A stretch of DNA of 64,000 bases from Natrialba aegyptia DSM 13077. GTDB lineage: Archaea; Halobacteriota; Halobacteria; Halobacteriales; Natrialbaceae. Location of the stretch: positions 506,704 through 570,703 of the forward strand of contig NZ_AOIP01000031.1 of assembly GCF_000337535.1 (NCBI RefSeq). Direction: 5' to 3'. Both the position numbers and the translations under genes were made by a program. Shown here piece after piece: positions 3,498 through 15,865 of this stretch (position 1 is the first letter of the stretch; every line of letters begins with the position of its first letter). Under the pieces are notes generated by a model. The model did no database searches. It had not been told where the DNA came from and saw nothing but the letters and a program-made list of their open reading frames with translations.

Positions 3498-4496
3498 ATG
3501 GAAGTGCCGTGCGTCCGCGTCCCGCTCGAAGACGGCGAAACCACGCGCCGTGAACTCGCGGATGCGGACCTGATCGCCGACGACTACGAGCTCACCGTCG
3601 ATGACGGCTCACTCTACGTTCCCGTCACTGATCCTGCCGCCGTCTCCGACGAGTTCGAACTCGTCACCCGCGCAGTCGACGAACGCGAGACGCAGACGAC
3701 ACCCGCCGACTTGCTGGGATTCGATCCTACCTACGAACGACTCGGTGAGGCAGTCCTCCTTGACGAGGATGACGGCGACCGTGCACGGGAAATCTCCGAT
3801 GCGCTTTTTCAGTCCGACCTTCCCGTCGAAACGGTGCTGAACAAGGCCTCGAAGGTCAAAGGCGAAACCCGCGTTCGCGACTGGGACCTCCTCGCCGGCG
3901 AGGACACCGAAGTGGTCCACCGCGAATACGGGTCGGAGTTCCGCCTGGATCTCGCCGAGGTCTACTTTTCGCCGCGGCTCGCGACGGAACGCCACCGCGT
4001 CGCCGAACAGGTCACAGCAGACGAGCGGACGTTCGACATGTTCGCCGGTGTCGGCCCGTTTGTCGTCCCGTTTGCGAAACGCGGTGCGGAGTGTGTCGGC
4101 GTCGACATCAATCCCGACGCAATCGAATACTTGCAGGAGAACGCACGCCGAAACGGGGTGGGGGATCGCGTGACAGCACTCTGTGACGATGTCCGCGCTA
4201 CTGCAAGCGACTACGAAAACTGGGCCGACCGCATCGTGATGAACCTCCCGCACAGCGCCGACGAGTTCATCGACGCCGCAGTTACGATCGCTGGTGACGA
4301 GTGCGTGCTCCACTATTACGATATCCAGCACGAGGACGATCCGTTCGGACCCGGAGAACGCGTTATTCGGCGTGCTGCTGAGCCAGCATACGAAGTCACT
4401 GTCGAGACGCGCCACGTCGTCCGGTCCTATGCGCCACACGAACTCAACGTCTGTCTGGACGTGCGACTCGACCGATCGACTGCGCTACGTAACTGA
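3498..4496 (+). CDS. trm5: tRNA (guanine37-N1)-methyltransferase, Trm5 type
   Basis: This is a 332-residue class I SAM methyltransferase of the Trm5/TYW2 family, which methylates N1 of G37 beside the anticodon to prevent frameshifting. The N-terminal substrate-binding region (LNKASKVKGETRVRDW, then VYFSPRLATERHR) is followed by motif I (FDMFAGVGPFVVPFAKRG), the acidic ribose loop (VGVDINPDAIEY) and the catalytic NLP motif (MNLPHSADEF). The ATG at 3498 begins MEVPCVRVPLEDG, the expected family start; a longer in-frame extension upstream looks non-coding. A tRNA-Thr gene follows 101 bp downstream. Which archaeal Trm5 subtype it is cannot be settled by eye. Confidence 0.9.
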   Translation: MEVPCVRVPLEDGETTRRELADADLIADDYELTVDDGSLYVPVTDPAAVSDEFELVTRAVDERETQTTPADLLGFDPTYERLGEAVLLDEDDGDRAREISDALFQSDLPVETVLNKASKVKGETRVRDWDLLAGEDTEVVHREYGSEFRLDLAEVYFSPRLATERHRVAEQVTADERTFDMFAGVGPFVVPFAKRGAECVGVDINPDAIEYLQENARRNGVGDRVTALCDDVRATASDYENWADRIVMNLPHSADEFIDAAVTIAGDECVLHYYDIQHEDDPFGPGERVIRRAAEPAYEVTVETRHVVRSYAPHELNVCLDVRLDRSTALRN

Positions 4497-4597
4497 TTCG
4501 CACGACCGTAACGATTCGCAATCCTTATGGCTGCTTTCGTTCCTACGAATAAACAGACCTTGCGTCGTGACACGGGGCAAGGGATGAATATGCACGC

Positions 4598-4671
4598 GCC
4601 GGTGTAGCTCAGACTGGCAGAGCGAATCCTTCGTAAGGATTAGGTCGAGGGTTCAAATCCCTCCACCGGCT
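4598..4671 (+). tRNA. tRNA-Thr (anticodon CGU)
   Basis: The 74-nt sequence folds as a complete cloverleaf. The acceptor stem is GCCGGTG pairing with CACCGGC. The D stem is GCTC/GAGC. The anticodon stem is AATCC/GGATT around the loop TTCGTAA, so the anticodon is CGT, reading threonine ACG codons. The T stem is GAGGG/CCCTC with loop TTCAAAT. The discriminator base is T and no CCA is encoded. No intron is present. It stands alone between trm5 and the accessory region that begins downstream. Confidence 0.97.
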
Positions 4672-4848
4672 TCTACCGCAGTACTCACAAACCTATCGCA
4701 GGGGACGTTGATTCCGTCACCCGGGTGGGTGCTCTACTACACTCGATACTGCAACGAGTTGCAATACTCTGCTTCCCAGAGCCAATACTAATAAGCTGAC
4801 TACACACCCCTCAACGCATCAGAAAACGAGTTCGGCGGGCAGACGAAG

Positions 4849-5006
4849 ATGTTCGGCCAAGCCACTGTTCCAGGAGAACGGGCAGATATCCTGACCAACT
4901 CGCTGACTAACTTGAGGTCGAAGAACCACGCAACCGGTGGCAGGTAGCGGATCTCATTGAACTCGATAGAGACTCTCTACAGTGTCCCTTCTACACTCAC
5001 AGATAG
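4849..5006 (+). pseudogene. Possible decayed small gene downstream of tRNA-Thr
   Basis: The ~325 bp between the tRNA and the sulfatase-like gene has no intact gene. Two frames look protein-like and join through a shift near 4925: MFGQATVPGERADIL onward, then EVEEPRNRWQVADLIELDRD ending at a TAG at 5004-5006. The joined reading resembles part of a small winged-helix-like protein, but I do not recognise the family. It overlaps the end of the sulfatase-like gene on the other strand by about 10 bp. The position just 3' of a tRNA gene is a common insertion site. Confidence 0.3.
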
Positions 5007-5923
5007 CCGAGCGCTTCGAGTTGCTCATCGGTATTAGAACCCTCATTTCGGTCCATTAGTGCATCTAAGTCACTCACAGAATATGACTGTCCCTGTCCCA
5101 CGGCAGTCACCCACGGAACTCGTTTGACAGCGGGGACCGGAGAATAGCCGGGGTGCCCATAGACGCCGAGTTCGCCGAGTCCATTCGCGTGATCAGCGGT
5201 GATCGCGATCGTTCCGGATAGATGCGTGAGGAGTGTGTCTACTTCATCAAGGACGGTTAAGAGATTCTGTCCATAGTCGTTCCAGACTTCCGCTCTATCA
5301 AATTCGCCGGATTGGAGACCCAACCAAACCTGGTGCGAGTCACCTCTCCAAACGGGGTTCTCTAGTTCGTATTTCCCTTCGCAATGTAAGAACGGAGCGT
5401 GCGGGGGGATATAGTGGATGACTAACCGTTCTGCATCGCTTTCTCGGTTCGCTCGAAGGGCCTCAGCGGTCACTTCCGCCGGGTCGCAGTGTTTCTCGTC
5501 TTCCTCGACGAAACGCCAGAGTTCGGTCATCTCGTGAAAGCGATTCGGATCAACGCAATCGGAAAATAAGTTTGCAGAGAGATAGTGGATCTTGCTCAGT
5601 TCCTGATCGCTGGCGCTCCCGAAGGCCTTTCTAAACCATTCTGAACTCGTACTTGCACAGGAATAAATCGACGTTGTCGTTTCGAACTCGTCATAAACCG
5701 GATGCTGTGGGGCAAATTCCGCGAAGAGATCGGCCCGGCACGCATCAAGGATAATCAGTACATCCCACTCCTTCTCAATGGGGCGTTCACCGTAGTTTAT
5801 CCGCTTTCCAAGTTGGACTAGCGCGCGTTCTACCGCTTTTTCCGCGGTCAATCGACTTCCCGAGAGAGCCCCATGTTTGTCCACGGCATGTTGGTATTGA
5901 GAAAGAAAATCCGATAGGGCCAT
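4997..5923 (-). CDS. Sulfatase / alkaline-phosphatase superfamily protein
   Basis: The 308-residue protein has the metal-binding signatures of the alkaline-phosphatase/sulfatase superfamily: WDVLIILDACRADLF near residue 55 (metal-binding Asp) and AITADHANGLGELGVYGHP near residue 250 (the second metal Asp/His). It ends LEALGYL, as many haloarchaeal members do. No signal peptide or membrane segment is visible. In haloarchaea such proteins sit near surface-glycan loci, and here it directly precedes the two S-layer genes, so a role in surface sulfate or phosphate decoration is plausible but inferred. The canonical sulfatase CxPxR formylglycine motif is absent; DACRAD occupies that site, so true sulfatase activity is uncertain. 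Confidence 0.8.
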   Translation of the reverse strand: MALSDFLSQYQHAVDKHGALSGSRLTAEKAVERALVQLGKRINYGERPIEKEWDVLIILDACRADLFAEFAPQHPVYDEFETTTSIYSCASTSSEWFRKAFGSASDQELSKIHYLSANLFSDCVDPNRFHEMTELWRFVEEDEKHCDPAEVTAEALRANRESDAERLVIHYIPPHAPFLHCEGKYELENPVWRGDSHQVWLGLQSGEFDRAEVWNDYGQNLLTVLDEVDTLLTHLSGTIAITADHANGLGELGVYGHPGYSPVPAVKRVPWVTAVGQGQSYSVSDLDALMDRNEGSNTDEQLEALGYL

Positions 5924-5990: not shown

Positions 5991-6117
5991 GTGTGGCCAG
6001 GAGTACCGCGATTGCGACTCGGCGATCAGAGTCGCGTGAAGACGCAATATCGCAGATTCGATGCCAGGGCTCGCCGGTTGCTGGTTAGGTTGAACTCTGC
6101 TATTCGATTCGTCTGCT

Positions 6118-6201
6118 ACAGCTGTCGCTGGGTCGTGTAGCGTTCGAAAGAAAAATCGAAGTGCGGCAAAGGCCGGACTGCGTCCGGTAGTTAGCTACTG
6201 C
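6118..6201 (-). terminator. Terminator region of S-layer gene 1 (duplicated)
   Basis: Just after the stop codon the minus strand holds GTAG-CTAA-CTAC, then the perfect hairpin CCGGAC-GCA-GTCCGG (6173-6187), followed about 18 nt later by a T-rich tract. The same 84 bp block, without indels, follows S-layer gene 2 at exactly the same spacing (offset 3864 bp). The end of similarity near 6118 marks one edge of the duplicated unit. Confidence 0.65.
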
Positions 6202-8637
6202 TTAGTTCTGCTTGCGCAGAGCCAGCATGGCAGCGCCGAGGAGTGCGGCGAGAGCGACAGCGACACCGAAGCCGGGCGTTCCGTCACCGTCGCCGTCGGA
6301 GCCGTCGTCGCCATCGTCCGAGCCGGAGTCACCGTCATCCGAGCCGGAGTCGCTACCGGAGTCAGATCCGTCGTCCGAGCCGGAGTCGCTACCGGAATCG
6401 GATTCGTTACCGTCGTCCGAGCCTTCCTCAGCGAAGGTTGTGGTGCCAGTTTCTTCGTTGTCACCGGCAGTAACACTCCACTCAACGTCACCGGCTTCTT
6501 CGGCGGTGAAGTCGAAGCTGTTGCTCCACTCTTCACCAGCGTCGAGCGTGATGTTATCGTTGAACGTGTTTTCGCCGCCGATCACAACGCCGACCTCGAT
6601 CTCGTCAGAGGCCGAGCCGCCAGTGTTGCTGACGGTCACGTCGAGCGTCCCGTTTTCACCGACAGTAACCTCACTCGGAGCGTCGGTGTCCAGTTCGATG
6701 TTTGGTTCCTCAGCATCGACGAGTTCGGAGTCGATTTCGTGTTCAGCGTCGCTGGCAGGGTCCATGACGCGGAGCGTGAACTCAGTTCCTGGTTCGTAGT
6801 CACCGAAGTTGTAGGTTGCCGTGAAGGTGCCGTCCTCTTCGACAACAGCCTCTGGCGACTGCGTGAAGTTACCAACCGAGCGAGCCTGGGTGTTCAGTTC
6901 GGTACCAGGTGCGACGTTGGTCTCACCGCTCAGTTCAGCGCCGTCGATTGCGGGTGCACTCTCTGCGGAGTCGTCCCACTCGACCGAGCGCTCGCTGATC
7001 GAAATCGTGTGTTCGAGGTCGATTTCTTCGTCCTCTTCAAGGAAGAACGCGCTGTCGTCAGCCTCGACGGTCACGTCGAAGCCAGCATCGAGGTCGCTCT
7101 CATCGTAGAGGTCCGAGTTTGCGAGGTCGAGTGCGAAGTACAGTGTGCCGTCGTACTCAGCATCGTCTCCACTGTTGAGGAACTCACCGTACTCGGTGAG
7201 GTCTGTCGGGTTGGGTTCCTGGTTCGGAACGTCCTCTTCTTCGATCTGGATACTGATGCTGTCTGCCAGCTCGCCATCATCGAGCGCGCCAGAGAGACCG
7301 TAGTCCTCAATGGCGACGATGACGCCGTCCTGGTGTGCGAACTCGTTGGTCTCGGTGACCGTCGTTTCGTTGAGGTCGTCAAGATCGCTCAGGCTACCAA
7401 GGTCGTCTTCAGGCACGGTGTGGGTCGTGACATCAGACGGACCATCGTACTCTCCAACGTTGAGGAACGCAGTGTCCGTTTCACCCTGGATATCGTCTCC
7501 GTCGCTGTTGATGCCCGTACCGATCGAGAGTTCGTATTCGGTAGCTGCAAGCGGTTCGCTGAGTTCGCCCTCAACGTTTTCAGACGTGACCTCAACGTCA
7601 TCTTCTTCAGCAGACCAGGCGGCGTCTTCGTCGCCCTGGCCGGCGGTGAAGGTGTTGTAGTTGAGGGTAATCTGATCGAGACCGTCGTCAGACGTGTCCT
7701 CGATGTGGACGAGCGACTCGAATCCGCTGCTGTCCACGTCGCCAACTTTCAGATACGCTTCGTTGGTGTTTTCGAGCTCAACAGGGATTTCAGCGAGATC
7801 GCCCTGTTCGACATTAATGTCAGACTCGACAAGGTCTGCAGCGATCTCTTCGTCAGTGATAGTGATGTTCGCCGTATCTTCGGCGGTCGTGTCACTGGTT
7901 TCGATCGAGAACTCGTAGTCGCCAGCCTCGATGTTGCTAAAGTTAGCCTCGAACGCCTCACGGCCGTCGAGAACAATCTCGTCATCGTCAGTGTCGATGT
8001 AGACGATGTTGTTGTCAGGATTCGCGTCCTCCAGTTCGGACGCGGAGTCGTAGTCAGAGAAGATGCTTGCGAGGTCGTCAGCATCGAGACCACTTGCACT
8101 CACGTTCGTCTGAACGTCACCACGGTCCGAGTCAATCTCGAGTTCCGTCATGGCACTCGAGGACCCTTCGACGTTAGTCACCGTCGAGTCAGCGAACTCG
8201 CCAGTGACACCGTGCGTACGAAGTTCGAACGTGACGATGTAGTCATCGCCAGCCGTTCCGGCGTTATTGACAGTGACGTTGTACGTGCCCGTTTCGAGGT
8301 TGTCCGTGTTGACCTCAACCTCTCCATCTTCAACGTCGAGGTCACGAAGCCAGTCACCATCATCGTCTTCAAGTTCGACAGTGGCATCGTCGAAAGAAAC
8401 TGCGCCACTATCGTCCGATTCGGACGATTCCGTGATGATTGCAGTCTGTCCTTGCCAAACAGCGTCTCCGCTGTTAATTTCCGCTTCTCCGCTGTTAACG
8501 TCGGAGGAGTCTCCAACGTTGTACGCCGCTGCCGCACCCGCGAAGGATGCAGTCATGGCGACGACAGAGAGAACCATAAGCGCGGCCAGGAACACTGCGC
8601 GTCCCTTTTCGCGAACTGAAATTTCGTTTTGTGTCAT
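6202..8637 (-). CDS. S-layer glycoprotein, copy 1 (PGF-CTERM anchored)
   Basis: The 811-residue protein is a haloarchaeal S-layer (cell-surface) glycoprotein precursor, the structural unit of the cell wall lattice. It starts MTQNEISVREKGRAVFLAAL with a Sec signal peptide ending near AGAAAA, followed by the typical mature start YNVGDSSDVNSG. The body is acidic, beta-rich and full of N-x-S/T glycosylation sequons. A low-complexity Ser/Gly/Asp linker precedes the C-terminal TPGFGVAVALAALLGAAM helix and basic RKQN tail. That is the PGF-CTERM signal processed by archaeosortase A. The start at 8637 is set by the signal peptide; an upstream in-frame ATG lies in the leader. A close paralogue lies 1.4 kb upstream on the same strand. 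Confidence 0.95.
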   Translation of the reverse strand: MTQNEISVREKGRAVFLAALMVLSVVAMTASFAGAAAAYNVGDSSDVNSGEAEINSGDAVWQGQTAIITESSESDDSGAVSFDDATVELEDDDGDWLRDLDVEDGEVEVNTDNLETGTYNVTVNNAGTAGDDYIVTFELRTHGVTGEFADSTVTNVEGSSSAMTELEIDSDRGDVQTNVSASGLDADDLASIFSDYDSASELEDANPDNNIVYIDTDDDEIVLDGREAFEANFSNIEAGDYEFSIETSDTTAEDTANITITDEEIAADLVESDINVEQGDLAEIPVELENTNEAYLKVGDVDSSGFESLVHIEDTSDDGLDQITLNYNTFTAGQGDEDAAWSAEEDDVEVTSENVEGELSEPLAATEYELSIGTGINSDGDDIQGETDTAFLNVGEYDGPSDVTTHTVPEDDLGSLSDLDDLNETTVTETNEFAHQDGVIVAIEDYGLSGALDDGELADSISIQIEEEDVPNQEPNPTDLTEYGEFLNSGDDAEYDGTLYFALDLANSDLYDESDLDAGFDVTVEADDSAFFLEEDEEIDLEHTISISERSVEWDDSAESAPAIDGAELSGETNVAPGTELNTQARSVGNFTQSPEAVVEEDGTFTATYNFGDYEPGTEFTLRVMDPASDAEHEIDSELVDAEEPNIELDTDAPSEVTVGENGTLDVTVSNTGGSASDEIEVGVVIGGENTFNDNITLDAGEEWSNSFDFTAEEAGDVEWSVTAGDNEETGTTTFAEEGSDDGNESDSGSDSGSDDGSDSGSDSGSDDGDSGSDDGDDGSDGDGDGTPGFGVAVALAALLGAAMLALRKQN

Positions 8638-8792
8638 GTGTTGTCTGTTTTTATTGTTTGTATGTCGATTCGGGGGCGGACCACCACAGCGGCCACACGC
8701 GGTCGATACGACCACGCGTTGGAGGCCTGAGATGGACTCCCGGTGTAGGGGTATCTGGTCGATTTTAGACACTGTGTAATAAGTCTTCTAGT
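8638..8792 (-). promoter_or_regulatory. S-layer gene 1 promoter and long 5' leader
   Basis: The minus strand has ACTAGAAGACTTATTAC (8776-8792), identical in all 17 bases to the block upstream of S-layer gene 2. The CTTATTAC core is a TATA-like element. It lies ~139 bp before the ATG, which implies a leader of about 110 nt. Long leaders are known for haloarchaeal csg genes. The leader also carries ACCCCTACACCGGGAG, shared in slightly altered form with gene 2. Confidence 0.6.
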
Positions 8793-8977
8793 GTAATAGG
8801 GGGTTCCAGAAAGCAATAGATTCATTTTGGAATAGAATCTCAATAGCTCTCACTACCACGCGGCGCAACATATTAGTAAATCTGTAGCTGAAGACACTCT
8901 GCGGGATTACCCACATCACAGGCTGCATATCTACGCAGAATGTGACCGTTGTCCTGTAGAAGCCGCGAGGTAGGGAG

Positions 8978-9030
8978 GACAGCACCCGGGTAGGGATTGA
9001 GTGCTGTTCCTCTTCTCGCCCGCGCTTTCA
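8978..9030 (-). promoter_or_regulatory. Distal conserved block upstream of S-layer gene 1
   Basis: This block is shared with 12748-12790 upstream of S-layer gene 2: GCACCCGGGTAGGGA-TGAGTG followed by CGCGCTTT. In this copy ACAGCAC and GTGCTGT can pair across it. It lies ~200 bp upstream of the proximal promoter and also overlaps the 3' flank of a broken small gene, so it may be an upstream regulatory site or that gene's terminator. Confidence 0.4.
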
Positions 9031-9043
9031 TATCGATCAATAG

Positions 9044-9334
9044 TCACTCATCTTGACGGGTACCATCACTGGTACCGTCTTTGTGGAGTGCCATCTCACC
9101 ATCAATCGTGGCAGGACGACACTCAAAGCTGCCAGAACCACGGAAATACTCAAGAATATAGCGTGTATCGCCCATGACCGCGCTATGGTTTGTGAACGCC
9201 GATTGAACAATCTCATCTTCAAACTCGTCGTACAATTCCGCGAGAGATAGAGTTATTTACGCGCGCTATGCTGTTCCCGTACTGTGTAGCACCGGTTCGA
9301 AAACTTGTCGTGCTTCTGGCGATAGATCACCCAC
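9044..9334 (-). pseudogene. Broken small gene B between the S-layer genes
   Basis: One frame reads GDLSPEARQVFEPVLHSTGTA, then two stops (TAG at 9266-9268 and TAA at 9257-9259), then continues in the same frame as ITLSLAELYDEFEDEIVQSA and on to ALHKDGTSDGTRQDE and a TGA. The likely start is GTG at 9334, overlapping the end of small gene A, as in a translationally coupled pair. Both halves have coherent acidic haloarchaeal codon use, so this was a gene of ~96 residues until recently. I do not recognise the family. Confidence 0.6.
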
Positions 9335-9698
9335 CGTGTTCCTTCCGGCGTTCCTCCGGGACAACCGTCTCGTATTTCTCCAGCTCACGCTTCCCAAGTG
9401 CGTGGAGAATCCAATCATATACCGCTCGGGGCATGCTCGTCTGGAGAATGTTCTTTTTCGAGAAGTCAACATCTGCTAAGAGTTTGCGGTTTTCATCAAC
9501 GAAAACCGCTGCTGCCTGATGTTCGTCACCGTCAAGATAGTAGATCGTAGAAAAGTCGCCGGACTCACCGATGTTTGTAACATCGCTTGTGCGAGTGACC
9601 GCGATACGGCAGAGCTCTTGGCGCTCCTCGAAATTGAGTCGGCTAACGTCGACCTATGTTTGAGGTCCAGTTGTGAGAAGATCGTAGACTTCGGTCAT
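9327..9698 (-). pseudogene. Broken small gene A between the S-layer genes
   Basis: The frame starts MTEVYDLLTTGPQT, hits TAG at 9654-9656 (codon 15), then runs uninterrupted as VDVSRLNFEERQELCRIAVT through SGDFSTIYYLDGDEHQAAAV to VVPEERRKEHGG and TGA. No ATG, GTG or TTG follows the stop soon enough to rescue the N-terminus. Sequence 5' of the ATG contains AGGTG, a reasonable ribosome-binding site. It would encode ~123 residues and overlaps small gene B by 8 bp. The family is not recognised; no membrane segment or signal is seen. The amber codon is the only visible lesion. Confidence 0.6.
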
Positions 9699-9981
9699 AG
9701 CAACACCTAGTGCTAGCGATGGTCTACTCCTCCGAACACAACACAGCCAAACACTACCTCTGAAATCCAGTGAAGGTCCATTGACGACATAGAGCTATCT
9801 AAAGAGCAGAATAGTAGGGAACTTCCCATAGGTGTCCATGGTTGACAATAACGGATATTCTTTCTCTGAGCCGCCACCATTTGTGAAATACTGCTTGAGT
9901 ATTGCAGATTATTTAACAGGGATCGTACGTCACGGAACGAGGAAAAGTCTAACTCTCTTTTCAGTTCTGTTCGCGAGCGCG
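9699..9981. other. Intergenic stretch without a recognisable gene
   Basis: These 283 bp lie between broken small gene A and the terminator of S-layer gene 2. They are A/T-richer than the surroundings. An open frame on the minus strand here has no haloarchaeal codon bias and no recognisable motif. Any promoter for small genes A and B should lie here, but I cannot point to a convincing TATA box. Confidence 0.4.
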
Positions 9982-10065
9982 ACAGCTGTCGCTGGGTGGT
10001 GTAGCGGTTGAAAGAAAAATCGAAGTGCGACAAGGGCCGGACTGAGTCCGGTAGTTAGCTACTGC
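9982..10065 (-). terminator. Terminator region of S-layer gene 2 (duplicated)
   Basis: This is the counterpart of the block after S-layer gene 1. It has the hairpin CCGGAC-TCA-GTCCGG at 10037-10051, with the stem conserved and only the loop changed, and the same downstream T-rich tract. Similarity between the copies stops near 9982. Confidence 0.65.
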
Positions 10066-12483
10066 TTAATTCTGCTTGCGCAGAGCCAGCATGGCAGCGC
10101 CGAGGAGTGCGGCGAGTGCGACAGCGACACCGAAGCCGGGCGTTCCGTCATCGTCGCCGTCGGAGTCGTCACCGCCACTATCGTCGGAGCCGGAGTCGCT
10201 ACCGGAGTCGCTACCGGAGTCGGACTCGTCGTCCGAGCCGGTGTCGCTACCGGAATCGGATTCGTTGCCGCCATCTTCGACGAAGGAGGTGGTGCCAGTT
10301 TCTTCGTTGTCACCGGCCACAACGCTCCACTCAACGTCACCAGTCTCTTCGGAGGTGAAGTCGAAGCTGTTGCTCCACTCTTCACCAGCGTCGAGCGTGA
10401 TGTTCTCGTTGAGCGTGTTTTCGCCGCCGATCACGACGCCGACCTCGATCTCGTCAGAGGCCGAGCCGCCAGTGTTGCTGACGGTCACATCGAGCGTTGC
10501 GTCTTCACCGACAGTAACCTCACTCGGTGCGTCGGTGTCGAGTTCGATGTTTGGCAGTTCAGCGTCGTAGAGTTCGGACGTGATCTCGTGTTCAGCGTCG
10601 CTGGCTGGGTCCATGACGCGGAGCGTGAACTCCGTCTCAGGTTCGTAGTCGCCGAAGTCGTAGGTTGCCGTGAAGGTACCGTCTTCTTCGACAACAGCGT
10701 CGGGCGAGTGCGTGAAGTTACCAACCGAGCGAGCCTGGGTCCGCAGTTCGGTACCAGGTGCAACGTTGGTTTCACCAGTCAGTTCAGCGCCGTCGACTGC
10801 GGGTGCACTCTCTGCGGAGTCGTCCCACTCAACCGAGCGCTCGTCGATCGAGATCGTGTGCTCGAGGTCGATTTCTTCGTCCTCTTCGAGGAAGAACGCA
10901 CTGTCGTTTGCCTGTGCAGTGACATCGAAGCCAGTGCTGAGGTCGTCCTCATCGTAGAGGTCCGTACCTGCGAGGTCGAGCGCGAAGTAGAGCGTACCGT
11001 TGTACTCGTTATCCTCTCCGCTGTTGAGGAACTCACCGTACTCAGAGAGATCCCGTGGGTTGGGTTCCTGGTTCGGGATGTCTTCTTCTTCGATCTGGAG
11101 ACTGATGCTGTCTGCCAGTTCGCCGTCATCGAGCGCGCCAGAGAGGCCGTAGCCTTCGATGGCGACGATGACGCCGTCCTGGTGTGCGAACTCGTTGGTC
11201 TCGGTGACAACCGTCTCGTTGAGGTCGTCAAGGTCGTTCAGGCTACCAAGGTCGTCTTCAGGCACGGTGTAGGTCGTGATATCGGATGGGCCCTCGTAGT
11301 CCTGGACGTTGAGGAAGGCCGTACCCGTTTCACTCTGGATATCGTCTTCGTCGCTGTTGACGTCCGTACCGAGCGAGAGTTCGTACTCAGTTCCTGCGAG
11401 CGGTTCACTGAGGTTGCCCTCGACGTTCAGTGGCGTGACCTCAACGTCCTCTTCTTCAGCGGACCAGGCTTCGCCTTCGTCGCCCTGGCCGGTGATGAAG
11501 GTGTTGTAGTTGAGAGTGATCTGGTCGTAGCCGTCGTCGGAGTTGTCTTCTATGTGGACGAGCGACTCGAAGCCGCTGTTGTCCACGTCACCAACCTTCA
11601 GGTACGCATCGTTGGTGTTCTCGAGTTCGATCGGGATCTCAGCGAGGTCGCCCTGGCCGACGTTAACGTCGGAGTTGACGAACTCTGCGGAGATTTCCTC
11701 GTCAGTGACAGTGATGTTCGCCGTATCTTCGGCGGTCGTGTCACTGGCATCGATCGAGAACTCGTAGTCGCCAGCATCGATACCGCCGAAGTCAGCGGTG
11801 AACTCGTCACGGCCATCGAGGACGATCTCGTCATCGTCAGTGTCGATGTAGACGATGCTGTTGTCAGGGTTCGCGTCCTCCAGTTCGGACGCGGAGTCGT
11901 ACTGCGTGAAGATACTTACGAGGTCGTCAGCGTCGAGACCGCTCGCGCTCACGTTCGTCTGCAAGTCACCACGGTCTGAATCGATCTCGAGCGACGTGTT
12001 CGAACTCGAGGAGTTTGCAACGTTGGTCACCGTCGCGTCGTCGAACTCGCCGGTGACACCGTGCGTGCGGAGGTCGAACTCGACACGATAATCAACGCTG
12101 GAGGATCCATCGTTATTGACAGTGACGTTGTACGTGCCCGTTTCGAGGTTGTCCGTGTCGACCTCAACCTGGCCGTCTTCAACGTCGAGGTCACGGAGCC
12201 AGTCGCCATCGTCGTCTTCAAGTTCGACAGTTGAGTCGTTAAATACAACTGAGTCACTCTCGGCCGACTGAGACGATTCCGTGATGATTGCGGTCTGTCC
12301 TTGCCAAACAGCGTCTCCGCTGTTAATTTCCATTTCTCCGCTGTTAACGTCGGAGGAGTCTCCAACGTTGTACGCCGCCGCTGCACCCGCGAAGGATGCA
12401 GTCATGGCGACAACGGAGAGTACCATCATTGCGGTCAGGAACAGCGCACGTCCCTTCTCGCTGAAAGTGGTTTCCTTTGTCAT
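10066..12483 (-). CDS. S-layer glycoprotein, copy 2 (PGF-CTERM anchored)
   Basis: The 805-residue paralogue of the preceding S-layer gene has the same architecture. A signal peptide (MTKETTFSEKGRALFLTAMM to AGAAAA) leads to the mature start YNVGDSSDVNSG, a long acidic beta-rich body with N-x-S/T sequons, a Ser/Gly/Asp-rich spacer and the PGF-CTERM anchor TPGFGVAVALAALLGAAM with RKQN tail. The two copies align along their whole length with many scattered substitutions. The differences cluster in surface-type segments (for example TAEDTANITITD versus TAEDTANITVTD, and the Ser/Gly/Asp spacer length). It is transcribed from its own copy of the promoter and leader, so both copies look expressible. 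Confidence 0.95.
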   Translation of the reverse strand: MTKETTFSEKGRALFLTAMMVLSVVAMTASFAGAAAAYNVGDSSDVNSGEMEINSGDAVWQGQTAIITESSQSAESDSVVFNDSTVELEDDDGDWLRDLDVEDGQVEVDTDNLETGTYNVTVNNDGSSSVDYRVEFDLRTHGVTGEFDDATVTNVANSSSSNTSLEIDSDRGDLQTNVSASGLDADDLVSIFTQYDSASELEDANPDNSIVYIDTDDDEIVLDGRDEFTADFGGIDAGDYEFSIDASDTTAEDTANITVTDEEISAEFVNSDVNVGQGDLAEIPIELENTNDAYLKVGDVDNSGFESLVHIEDNSDDGYDQITLNYNTFITGQGDEGEAWSAEEEDVEVTPLNVEGNLSEPLAGTEYELSLGTDVNSDEDDIQSETGTAFLNVQDYEGPSDITTYTVPEDDLGSLNDLDDLNETVVTETNEFAHQDGVIVAIEGYGLSGALDDGELADSISLQIEEEDIPNQEPNPRDLSEYGEFLNSGEDNEYNGTLYFALDLAGTDLYDEDDLSTGFDVTAQANDSAFFLEEDEEIDLEHTISIDERSVEWDDSAESAPAVDGAELTGETNVAPGTELRTQARSVGNFTHSPDAVVEEDGTFTATYDFGDYEPETEFTLRVMDPASDAEHEITSELYDAELPNIELDTDAPSEVTVGEDATLDVTVSNTGGSASDEIEVGVVIGGENTLNENITLDAGEEWSNSFDFTSEETGDVEWSVVAGDNEETGTTSFVEDGGNESDSGSDTGSDDESDSGSDSGSDSGSDDSGGDDSDGDDDGTPGFGVAVALAALLGAAMLALRKQN

Positions 12484-12629
12484 GTTATTGTGTTCGTTGT
12501 GTGACCAGGCAGCCATCCCAGCGGCCCGATCGCCACGACCAACGTGATCGTGTCGATTGGAGATCTGGAATATGCTCCCGGATAGGGGTAACAGGTGGAT
12601 TTTGGATAATACGTAATAAGTCTTCTAGT
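12484..12629 (-). promoter_or_regulatory. S-layer gene 2 promoter and long 5' leader
   Basis: The same 17-base block ACTAGAAGACTTATTAC occurs here at 12613-12629, 130 bp from the ATG at 12483. The leader contains TTACCCCTATCCGGGAG, matching the gene 1 leader. Conservation of these short blocks inside an otherwise diverged leader suggests they are functional. Confidence 0.6.
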
Positions 12630-12747
12630 TCTTACTTTCACCAATCGAAATATATTTGAGTTGCCAGTTAGAAATATAGATGCGGGCGATCGACGCCCAT
12701 GCGCACATCCATCTCGGAATGTGTTGTCTTGGCGCGCGGAGGCCGGG

Positions 12748-12790
12748 GCACCCGGGTAGGGACTGAGTGTTTTCAGCCTCCCGCGCTTTT
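12748..12790 (-). promoter_or_regulatory. Distal conserved block upstream of S-layer gene 2
   Basis: GCACCCGGGTAGGGACTGAGTG followed by CCGCGCTTTT matches 8978-9030 upstream of copy 1. The flanking pairing seen in copy 1 is not complete here, which argues for a sequence-specific site rather than a simple hairpin. Confidence 0.4.
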
Positions 12791-14251: not shown

Positions 14252-14619
14252 ATTTATAGTTCCCTCAAGATACGTTTTAGCACCCCACAGTACGCATTAT
14301 AACAGTTTCTATCTATGGATCATTATTTAGTAGCTATACTAATATTATAAAAAATAATAACATTTATAGGATACTATTGGATCTAAGGAACTGTTCCTAG
14401 AAACGTCCGTGGTCGGTAACGGGGACGTGAACTCCCACATATCTCCTGATCATCCAATATTATGTAAAAATATTAATTAAATATACCATTCTCATATTGA
14501 AGATATTATTTAGGAGATACACTAAATACCTATTTAATTTTCTGCATATAAACCAAATCGCTCTTCTGTAGGAGATCGTTGATACTGCTCAACTGTCGCT
14601 GTAGAATCGAAGAGAGCAA
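14252..14619. other. A/T-rich intergenic stretch
   Basis: This is nearly 370 bp of strongly A/T-rich DNA (runs such as TATTATAAAAAATAATAAC and ATTAATTAAATATACC), unlike the GC-rich genes on both sides. No open frame with haloarchaeal codon use is present. It contains several TATA-like words, one of which probably serves the Tat-exported protein. Such patches often mark inserted or decaying DNA, and an insertion sequence follows immediately. Confidence 0.5.
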
Positions 14620-14641
14620 GGACACCGCGTCAGCGGTGTCC
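14620..14641 (+). repeat. Perfect hairpin in front of the transposase
   Basis: GGACACCGC-GTCA-GCGGTGTCC forms a 9-bp stem with a 4-nt loop, ending 7 nt before the transposase ATG. Structures at this position in insertion sequences can block read-through expression of the transposase; that role here is inferred. Confidence 0.6.
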
Positions 14642-14648
14642 GTTAGGC

Positions 14649-15498
14649 ATGATTCCACTAGATGTGTTTGGGTCGGAATCGGTCGTAGCGGACCTGTTGG
14701 CGCAGGTTCGCTGGCGTAACGGTGTTACTTGCCCTCTCTGCCGTTCTGACCTGACGGTCAAGAACGGCAGCTATGGGCACTTTCAGCGCTATCTCTGTAA
14801 GAATTGCGACCGCACGTTCAAGGATAAGACCGGCACGATCTTTGCCCATTCAAAGGTTGCGCTCAGGAAGTGGCTGTTCTCGATTTACGCGTTTCTCCGG
14901 TTTAGCACGAGTCTTCGCCAACTTCAGCTAGAGATCGATGTTCAGTACAAAACGATCTCCCAGCGCGTCGAGCGCTTCACAAAGGCGCTCGACGCACCGT
15001 CACTTGACCTCGTCGGGCCGGTCGAAATCGACGAGGTCTACGTTTCTGCAGGGTTGAAAGGCCGCGAACGCGACCAAGAGTCGCGCTCGCGTGGCCTGTC
15101 CACGCGTGGGCGAGGATCAGTATGACCAAGACAAACCGCCAGTGTTCACGATCGTCGATCGTGGTACCGACGATCGGTACGTGATCCCAGCGAAATCCGT
15201 CGATGAATCGACGATTCGGCTCCTTCTCGCAAACCGCGAGAAGGAGCCACTAACCATCTACACGGACGGATTTCGTGCCTACGATCCGCTGGCTGAGGAC
15301 GACGTATTCGCGGTCGAATGCGTCGTCCACGGCGACGGCAAATACGCCGACGAAGACGTTCACGTCAACACCTGCGAGAGCCACGGATCGCTGCTGCGAC
15401 TGTGGCTCTCGCCTCATCGAGGCATCTCAAAAGACAAGCTCACACAGTATCTCCGAGCGTTCCAACTTCGACGAAAGTTACTCCGGAAACCAAGGTGA
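14649..15498 (+). mobile_element. IS1595-type transposase gene, frameshifted
   Basis: Two overlapping frames make one transposase of about 280 residues. The first part (MIPLDVFGSESVVADLLAQV) has a zinc ribbon (CPLCRSD, CKNCDRTF) and the first catalytic Asp region (VGPVEIDEVYVSAG). It ends prematurely in RGRGSV-stop. The second frame carries DQYDQDKPPVFTIVDRG, IYTDGFRAYDPL and the His-Ser-Glu-type end (VNTCESHGSLLRLWLSPHRG), as in ISXO2-like DDE enzymes. The frames join at 15115-15121, where a single extra base restores the consensus if removed. No IS1595-family programmed frameshift is expected, so the copy is probably inactive. No matching pair of terminal inverted repeats is visible; the right end may be near TAGCACTTTTAGCC (15657-15670). 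Confidence 0.8.
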
Positions 15499-15606
15499 GA
15501 ACCTCTCAAACACGCTGTCAAAGCTACGCTGTGAAATCAACAAAGTGCTACACAAGAGCGTCTCCAAGTAAATCCGCAGGCAATGCAGCGAAACAACGGC
15601 GTAGTC

Positions 15607-15645
15607 GGCGAATCCGCCGCCACCCTGCGGGGCGGCGGATTCGCC
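15607..15645. repeat. 15-bp perfect hairpin downstream of the transposase
   Basis: GGCGAATCCGCCGCC and GGCGGCGGATTCGCC pair perfectly around a 9-nt loop. There is no T-run after it on either strand, so it is not a classical terminator. It lies ~110 bp after the transposase stop and may be part of the insertion sequence end. Confidence 0.65.
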
Positions 15646-15689
15646 TCGACCACCAATAGCACTTTTAGCCAACGTCACTACCTACCCAG

Positions 15690-15736
15690 TGAAGCGGGAA
15701 ATTTTGGACATAGAGTATCCGCCGTTTCCCGCTTCA
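15690..15736. repeat. 12-bp inverted repeat with 23-nt spacer
   Basis: TGAAGCGGGAAA and TTTCCCGCTTCA are exact reverse complements flanking 23 nt. This could be a terminal repeat of a small remnant element or a binding site. It lies between the insertion sequence and the PQQ-repeat gene. Confidence 0.5.
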
Positions 15737-15865
15737 ACTCCCTAGTTGTAACGGATCAGCTCGATACTGTCTGGCGATTCACCAGAGCCCACTGAAGGGA
15801 GATTTCGGTCGTTCTGGATCTGACAGGAGTTCTGTAGAGATGATTGGTATACTGAAATTGTCTAC

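Follow-up and report, generated by a model that had tools for sequence, protein, structure and literature searches.

Distinct control regions over a shared coding block in a tandem pair of S-layer glycoprotein genes of Natrialba aegyptia

S-layer proteins form the main cell wall of haloarchaea and are receptors for haloarchaeal viruses. An earlier note on the DNA described here held that most haloarchaea rely on one main S-layer glycoprotein gene (csg); this stands as a tendency, but several of the genomes in our comparison carry two to five csg-like genes, and two S-layer proteins per strain have been described (PMC8640222, PMC9973310). A tandem S-layer pair is itself a known kind of arrangement. 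Haloarcula hispanica has two S-layer glycoproteins, csg1 and csg2 (G0HV85 and G0HV86), according to a statement in PMC8640222 that cites Lu et al. 2015. In Haloferax gibbonsii LR2-5, passages in PMC7921747 and PMC9973310 report that both members of a pair of S-layer glycoproteins (HfgLR_04635 and HfgLR_11210) were detected by mass spectrometry, and that one of them probably serves as the receptor of virus HFTV1, its loss or change giving resistance and its deletion being non-lethal. Exchange of csg has been described in Haloquadratum walsbyi, where the S-layer gene on island GI1/DV2 is replaced between close strains (PMC3119063), and recombination within S-layer genes is known from Haloferax (PMC5867893).

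The stretch of Natrialba aegyptia DSM 13077 DNA that we analyzed, 64,000 nucleotides in length and referred to here as the window, contains two complete S-layer glycoprotein genes on the minus strand with about 1.3 kb between them. The upstream member, csg2 (10066..12483), encodes 805 residues that are 84% identical to the 811-residue product of the downstream member, csg1 (6202..8637), and both reading frames are intact. Each protein has a signal peptide and a PGF-CTERM anchor, as the earlier note had read them, and both features pass the curated cut-offs: the halo signal peptide model TIGR04207 scores 46.1 and 40.1 bits in Csg1 and Csg2 against a cut-off of 24.6, TIGR04126 (PGF-CTERM) scores 41.5 and 42.8 bits against 24.5, and PF18204 (PGF-CTERM) likewise lies above its cut-off in both. 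The scores for NF041335 (ArtA-dependent S-layer glycoprotein), 69.9 and 64.4 bits, fall below the equivalog threshold of 1100 bits, and we assign the two proteins to the same superfamily but outside that equivalog. Both are acidic, with 26–27% Asp plus Glu, and contain 9 (Csg1) and 13 (Csg2) N-X-S/T sequons that are partly copy-specific. A search of solved structures by sequence matched nothing useful for Csg. The AF2 model of Csg1 (mean pLDDT 77) ranks the Haloferax volcanii S-layer protein (7ptp) first in the PDB with an E value of 1.2e-19; the TM-score is 0.28, with 14% sequence identity in the structural alignment, so the match reflects an array of Ig-like domains rather than a rigid overlay. 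Csg1 is thus predicted to have an Ig-like domain array as in the H. volcanii protein.

A third paralogue, csg3, which the earlier note overlooked, lies on another contig (G000:C25:4258-7449, equivalent to L038:4258-7449, minus strand) and is 61% identical. The core promoter and leader described below are present at all three genes, so that the promoterless donor copies expected for antigenic variation through silent cassettes are lacking among them. The third paralogue adjoins a gene for a fibronectin-III protein, as does a csg of Natrialba genome G003 (L041), which suggests that csg loci are conserved at two or more places in Natrialba, the second being near dph5/trm5. Downstream of csg1, a gene at 4997-5923 (minus strand) with a sub-threshold sulfatase match also adjoins csg in N. 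taiwanensis and in Natrialba genome G002; no DNA-level match to it was found in the other Natrialba genomes. Just past the 5′ flank of csg2, at about 14556-15790 (plus strand), is an IS1595-family transposase split into two open reading frames (14649-15125 and 15091-15498), and the same region holds a repeat of about 230 bp with many copies in Natrialba genomes. Elsewhere in the family, L049 (G028:C2:320000-339999) carries five consecutive csg-like PGF-CTERM genes, and pairs occur in L047 and L048.

That the pair could be an assembly artefact, made from two strain variants or a misjoined repeat, is improbable in the extreme. Assemblies do break at csg genes in Natrialba genomes G001 and G002, but here a single 592-kb contig runs through both copies, and the independent assembly of N. 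taiwanensis DSM 12281, the closest match in named collections and a member of the same genus, agrees with it in gene order, in flanks and in the differences specific to each copy.

Across 2694 alignment columns, starting at the promoter block and ending about 100 nt beyond the stop codon, the two genes have 85% DNA identity. The core promoter block ACTAGAAGACTTATTAC (8776..8792 at csg1 and 12613..12629 at csg2, both minus) is identical in the two copies and has no further occurrence in the 4.6-Mb genome; a reversed-pattern control has none at all. Both leaders contain the element TACCCCTA (8746..8753 in csg1 and 12583..12590 in csg2, minus), which we place, from its spacing to a TATA-like box, probably at the transcription start or close to it, and the distal motif CACCCGGGTAGGGAYTGAGTG is common to both. 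Past the stop codon, the 3′ untranslated and terminator blocks (6115..6201 and 9979..10065, minus) align without gaps until similarity ceases about 100 nt beyond it. Alignment and genome search thus bear out what the earlier note had said of the identical 17-base promoter block, the shared leader and distal motifs and the indel-free terminator.

The same note concluded that whole transcription units had been duplicated and kept. A plain tandem duplication of this kind, promoter to terminator, would account for the 85% identity over the unit, the gap-free 3′ part and the common orientation of two copies 1.3 kb apart. The shared motifs, on the other hand, are present at unrelated csg genes as well. 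The pattern CTTATTA-N20-25-TACCCCTA has 22 matches in 17 of 41 genomes, every one directly 5′ of an S-layer signal-peptide open reading frame, and the reversed pattern has a single match; the pattern can serve as a homology-free marker for locating S-layer genes. In other haloarchaeal families, TACCCCTACCC sits 78–126 nt 5′ of the csg start codon and the TATA box differs (CATTTATAA). The promoter block and leader together read as a general csg signature, spread over the whole order and many haloarchaeal genera, which the earlier note had not seen, and not as a mark of duplication, so the shared 17-base block is a poor guide to the date of a csg1/csg2 duplication.

The region shared at high identity begins inside the coding sequence. 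A homogenized coding block, 85% identical between the copies, starts at about codon 24 and reaches as far as the terminator (6115..8565 in csg1 and 9979..12414 in csg2, both minus), as delimited by a contrast in synonymous divergence and by unrelated flanks. Between csg1 and csg2, dS is 1.15 in codons 1–24 and 0.19 in codons 25–75, and ranges from 0.19 to 0.54 over four segments of codons 25–740; the fall from 1.15 to 0.19 places the 5′ breakpoint in the signal peptide. The leaders 5′ of it are of at least three types in the genus. Type I is found at csg1, N. taiwanensis csg1 and the genes G001a, G003a and G004, type II at csg2, N. taiwanensis csg2, G002a and G001b, and type III at G003b, G006 and G002c. 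The csg1 and csg2 leaders are 57% identical to one another, whereas the csg1 leader is 76% identical to those of the G003 and G004 csg genes and the csg2 leader 87% identical to that of G002. The 260 bp above the promoter follow the same pattern, with 27% identity between csg1 and csg2, 62% between csg1 and G003 and 66% between csg2 and G002.

Trees of the leaders and of the proteins disagree accordingly. The leader tree recovers type I and type II clades with moderate support (89/89 and 88/87), and a clade uniting the csg1 and csg2 leaders is rejected (AU test, p=0.0002); in the protein tree, Csg1 and Csg2 are sisters with support of 100/100. With the N. taiwanensis orthologue set aside, the proteins of the G003 and G004 genes that share the csg1 leader type are 41% identical to Csg1 where complete. 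The two control regions belong to different, older lineages. Because they are not each other's closest relatives and the DNA above the promoter block is unrelated between the copies, the duplication of whole units is not supported, and we regard it as very improbable.

The same discordance between promoter and coding region is found in two other Natrialba genomes, G001 and G002, in both cases on contigs broken inside csg. In G002, two csg genes have 97.6% identity over their first 255 coding nucleotides but 53% between their leaders (types II and III). In G001, a gene with a type I leader and one with a type II leader run into identical sequence inside the signal peptide, and their two contigs stop at one and the same base, which is what a collapsed repeat would produce. 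Genome G003 provides a counter-example: its two csg genes, with leader types I and III, are only 44% identical, so homogenization is not universal. As far as the literature examined goes, discordance of this kind within one genome is new. The csg of Natrialba genome G006 (L044) is 56% identical to a protein from another genus (the G025 csg, L018) and 33–39% identical to other Natrialba csg products, which suggests transfer between genera.

Different control-region lineages over an 85%-identical coding block, with the same discordance in two other genomes, argue that the unit was not duplicated whole and that the coding block was exchanged or homogenized. We consider it probable that coding blocks were exchanged or homogenized between csg loci beneath promoters that each locus retained, gene conversion being the simplest route. 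Efficient gene conversion has been reported in haloarchaea (PMC11276520, PMC8223754), and it is the likeliest route in these polyploid organisms. The csg1 and csg2 copies alone fix neither the direction nor the mechanism, as promoter replacement after duplication of the whole unit predicts the same discordance. Such a capture, in which the whole unit or its coding part was duplicated and the 5′ region of one copy then replaced with no conversion of the coding block, also fits the 5′ side of csg1, which is collinear over about 1.2 kb with the csg context of G003. That stretch includes a decayed gene (9040..9690, minus), a frameshifted remnant whose intact homologue, of 209 residues and with no Pfam match, lies directly 5′ of a csg in G003 (L041, about 4250-4880, plus); the gene is broken in N. 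taiwanensis too. Its intact form next to the G003 csg identifies the 5′ flank of csg1 as a csg context of older date. Promoter capture would nevertheless require independent events in three lineages (the window and N. taiwanensis, G001, and G002) with the same breakpoint near the signal peptide, and we judge it unlikely.

In the exchange that we favor, csg1 and csg2 would be two working members of a small Natrialba S-layer gene family, whose loci keep an old promoter and leader while the coding block, from signal peptide to terminator, is swapped or homogenized between them, presumably by gene conversion. The coding block of one copy would have replaced that of the other before the split from N. 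taiwanensis, after which, with purifying selection acting on both, the copies would have evolved apart as distinct orthologues and exchanged no more than small patches. Fixed control regions over exchangeable coding blocks would offer a concrete route to the extreme divergence of S-layers between close species, since a new S-layer type could reach all loci with regulation preserved.

The history since that split can be followed in N. taiwanensis, which has the same tandem csg pair and was the only addition from the contig search. In a four-sequence site test with the window genes, 365 sites support orthology, 9 paralogy and 6 the crossed arrangement, which rules out recent concerted evolution of the whole csg1 and csg2 genes. 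Orthologues are thus the closer pairs in the comparison with N. taiwanensis (365 to 9 sites), and paralogues against more distant Natrialba (84% versus about 41%). Since the N. taiwanensis pair are clean orthologues, recent exchange must have been small. Exchange-like patches are short and confined to the neighborhood of the 5′ end of the coding region. Recombination between the copies, which the earlier note had proposed, accordingly fares well as a past process and poorly as an ongoing one. One further run of 10 identical sites at the 3′ end (p=0.0005) was discarded, as it falls in a Ser-Asp repeat of uncertain alignment with an N in the N. taiwanensis copy; an apparent frameshift in N. taiwanensis csg2 likewise adjoins an N (L039:5680) and is not evidence of a pseudogene. 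The dN/dS ratio is approximately 0.1 between orthologues, in keeping with the earlier view that both copies were kept, and approximately 0.24 between paralogues, and several copy-specific glycosylation sequons are retained in both genomes. These values and sequons indicate that both copies have been maintained and have drifted apart since homogenization.

Each gene is preceded, 130–220 bp above its promoter, by a hairpin that lies on the divergent strand with respect to csg. The csg1 hairpin (8962..9029, plus) has the conserved loop GGGTAGGG followed by a T-run and is a putative terminator of a small divergent RNA; the csg2 hairpin (12726..12790, plus) has the same loop on a different stem. 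Across copies, the loop GGGTAGGG(A) is constant while the stems vary, and a T-run comes next in nearly all. Trained on 11 copies, a covariance model searched against 100 genomes returned 12 sites at E<=0.01, distributed over 7 of the genomes. Every site sits upstream of a csg gene, with none elsewhere; one of the 12, at N. taiwanensis csg3, is outside the training set. A further copy without the T-run was spotted by eye in genome G022 of another genus (E=0.17). The hairpin is absent from type III genes (G003b and G006) and from most other genera examined, an Rfam search at both window hairpins gave no family match, and as far as the literature examined goes this csg-only hairpin was previously undescribed. 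Summed over the hairpins, the fold energy is −403.6 kcal/mol on the divergent strand and −359.4 kcal/mol on the csg strand, the divergent strand being more stable because its G-U pairs become A-C mismatches on the other. Single-sequence z-scores for the window hairpins are modest (−2.7 and −1.9), and the RNAalifold covariation term is weak (−0.13). Misalignment of the variable stems by MAFFT is the probable cause of the weak term, and we give more weight to the single-sequence folds and to the comparison of strands.

It is quite possible that the hairpin serves only to terminate or insulate stray transcription that leaves the csg promoter region in the divergent direction, with a loop that has no partner. 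A GC hairpin with a T-run, present in nearly all copies when read on the divergent strand, is what a terminator would have, and with no gene converging on the site, the only transcript for it to end would be a short divergent one. Terminators have no need of a conserved loop, however, whereas here GGGTAGGG(A) persists across changing stems, and the G022 copy has no T-run. Read on the csg strand, the loop and the leader element form a direct repeat, so the repeated CCCTACCCGGG could instead be a DNA operator for a putative csg regulator, which would bind both the upstream copy and the copy at the start of the transcript. We hold this to be possible but doubtful, as the spacing between the two copies varies from about 174 to 254 bp, the stems are preserved through changes on both sides and the total pairing energy favors the divergent strand. 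The conserved loop GGGUAGGG is also complementary to the conserved csg leader start CCCUACCC, and, leaving aside the complement of the loop itself and a single unrelated site, a 12-nt core finds no better partners in the window than the two csg leaders, in a comparison made post hoc. A tentative and rather unlikely reading is that at type I and II Natrialba csg genes, a divergent small RNA would pair through its loop with the start of the csg mRNA and control all copies, over a coding block that is itself swapped or homogenized. If true, this would be RNA-based control of S-layer synthesis able to act on all csg copies at once. The restriction of the hairpin to csg makes the regulation of one of the cells' most abundant proteins directly testable.

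Under coding-block exchange, the two genes, each with its own predicted transcription start and its own upstream divergent-strand hairpin, would likely provide one lattice type, or two compatible subunits, under two regulatory inputs, and would then be differentially expressed. The presence of two S-layer glycoproteins in one haloarchaeon is shared with H. hispanica, whose consecutive accessions, compared through the accession statement, suggest neighboring genes. It is shared also with H. gibbonsii LR2-5, where, unlike the tandem Natrialba genes, the locus tags of the pair are far apart, and where the passages describing the pair report no hairpin or promoter analysis. In H. walsbyi, the S-layer coding sequence likewise differs sharply between close strains within the same genomic context; there, however, the breakpoints lie outside csg and lateral transfer was proposed, with no homogenization within a genome. 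The H. volcanii csg (PDB 7ptp) differs in being a single main gene with 14% identity to Csg1 in the structural alignment, and it shares with the Natrialba proteins the signal peptide, the Ig-like domain array and the PGF-CTERM.
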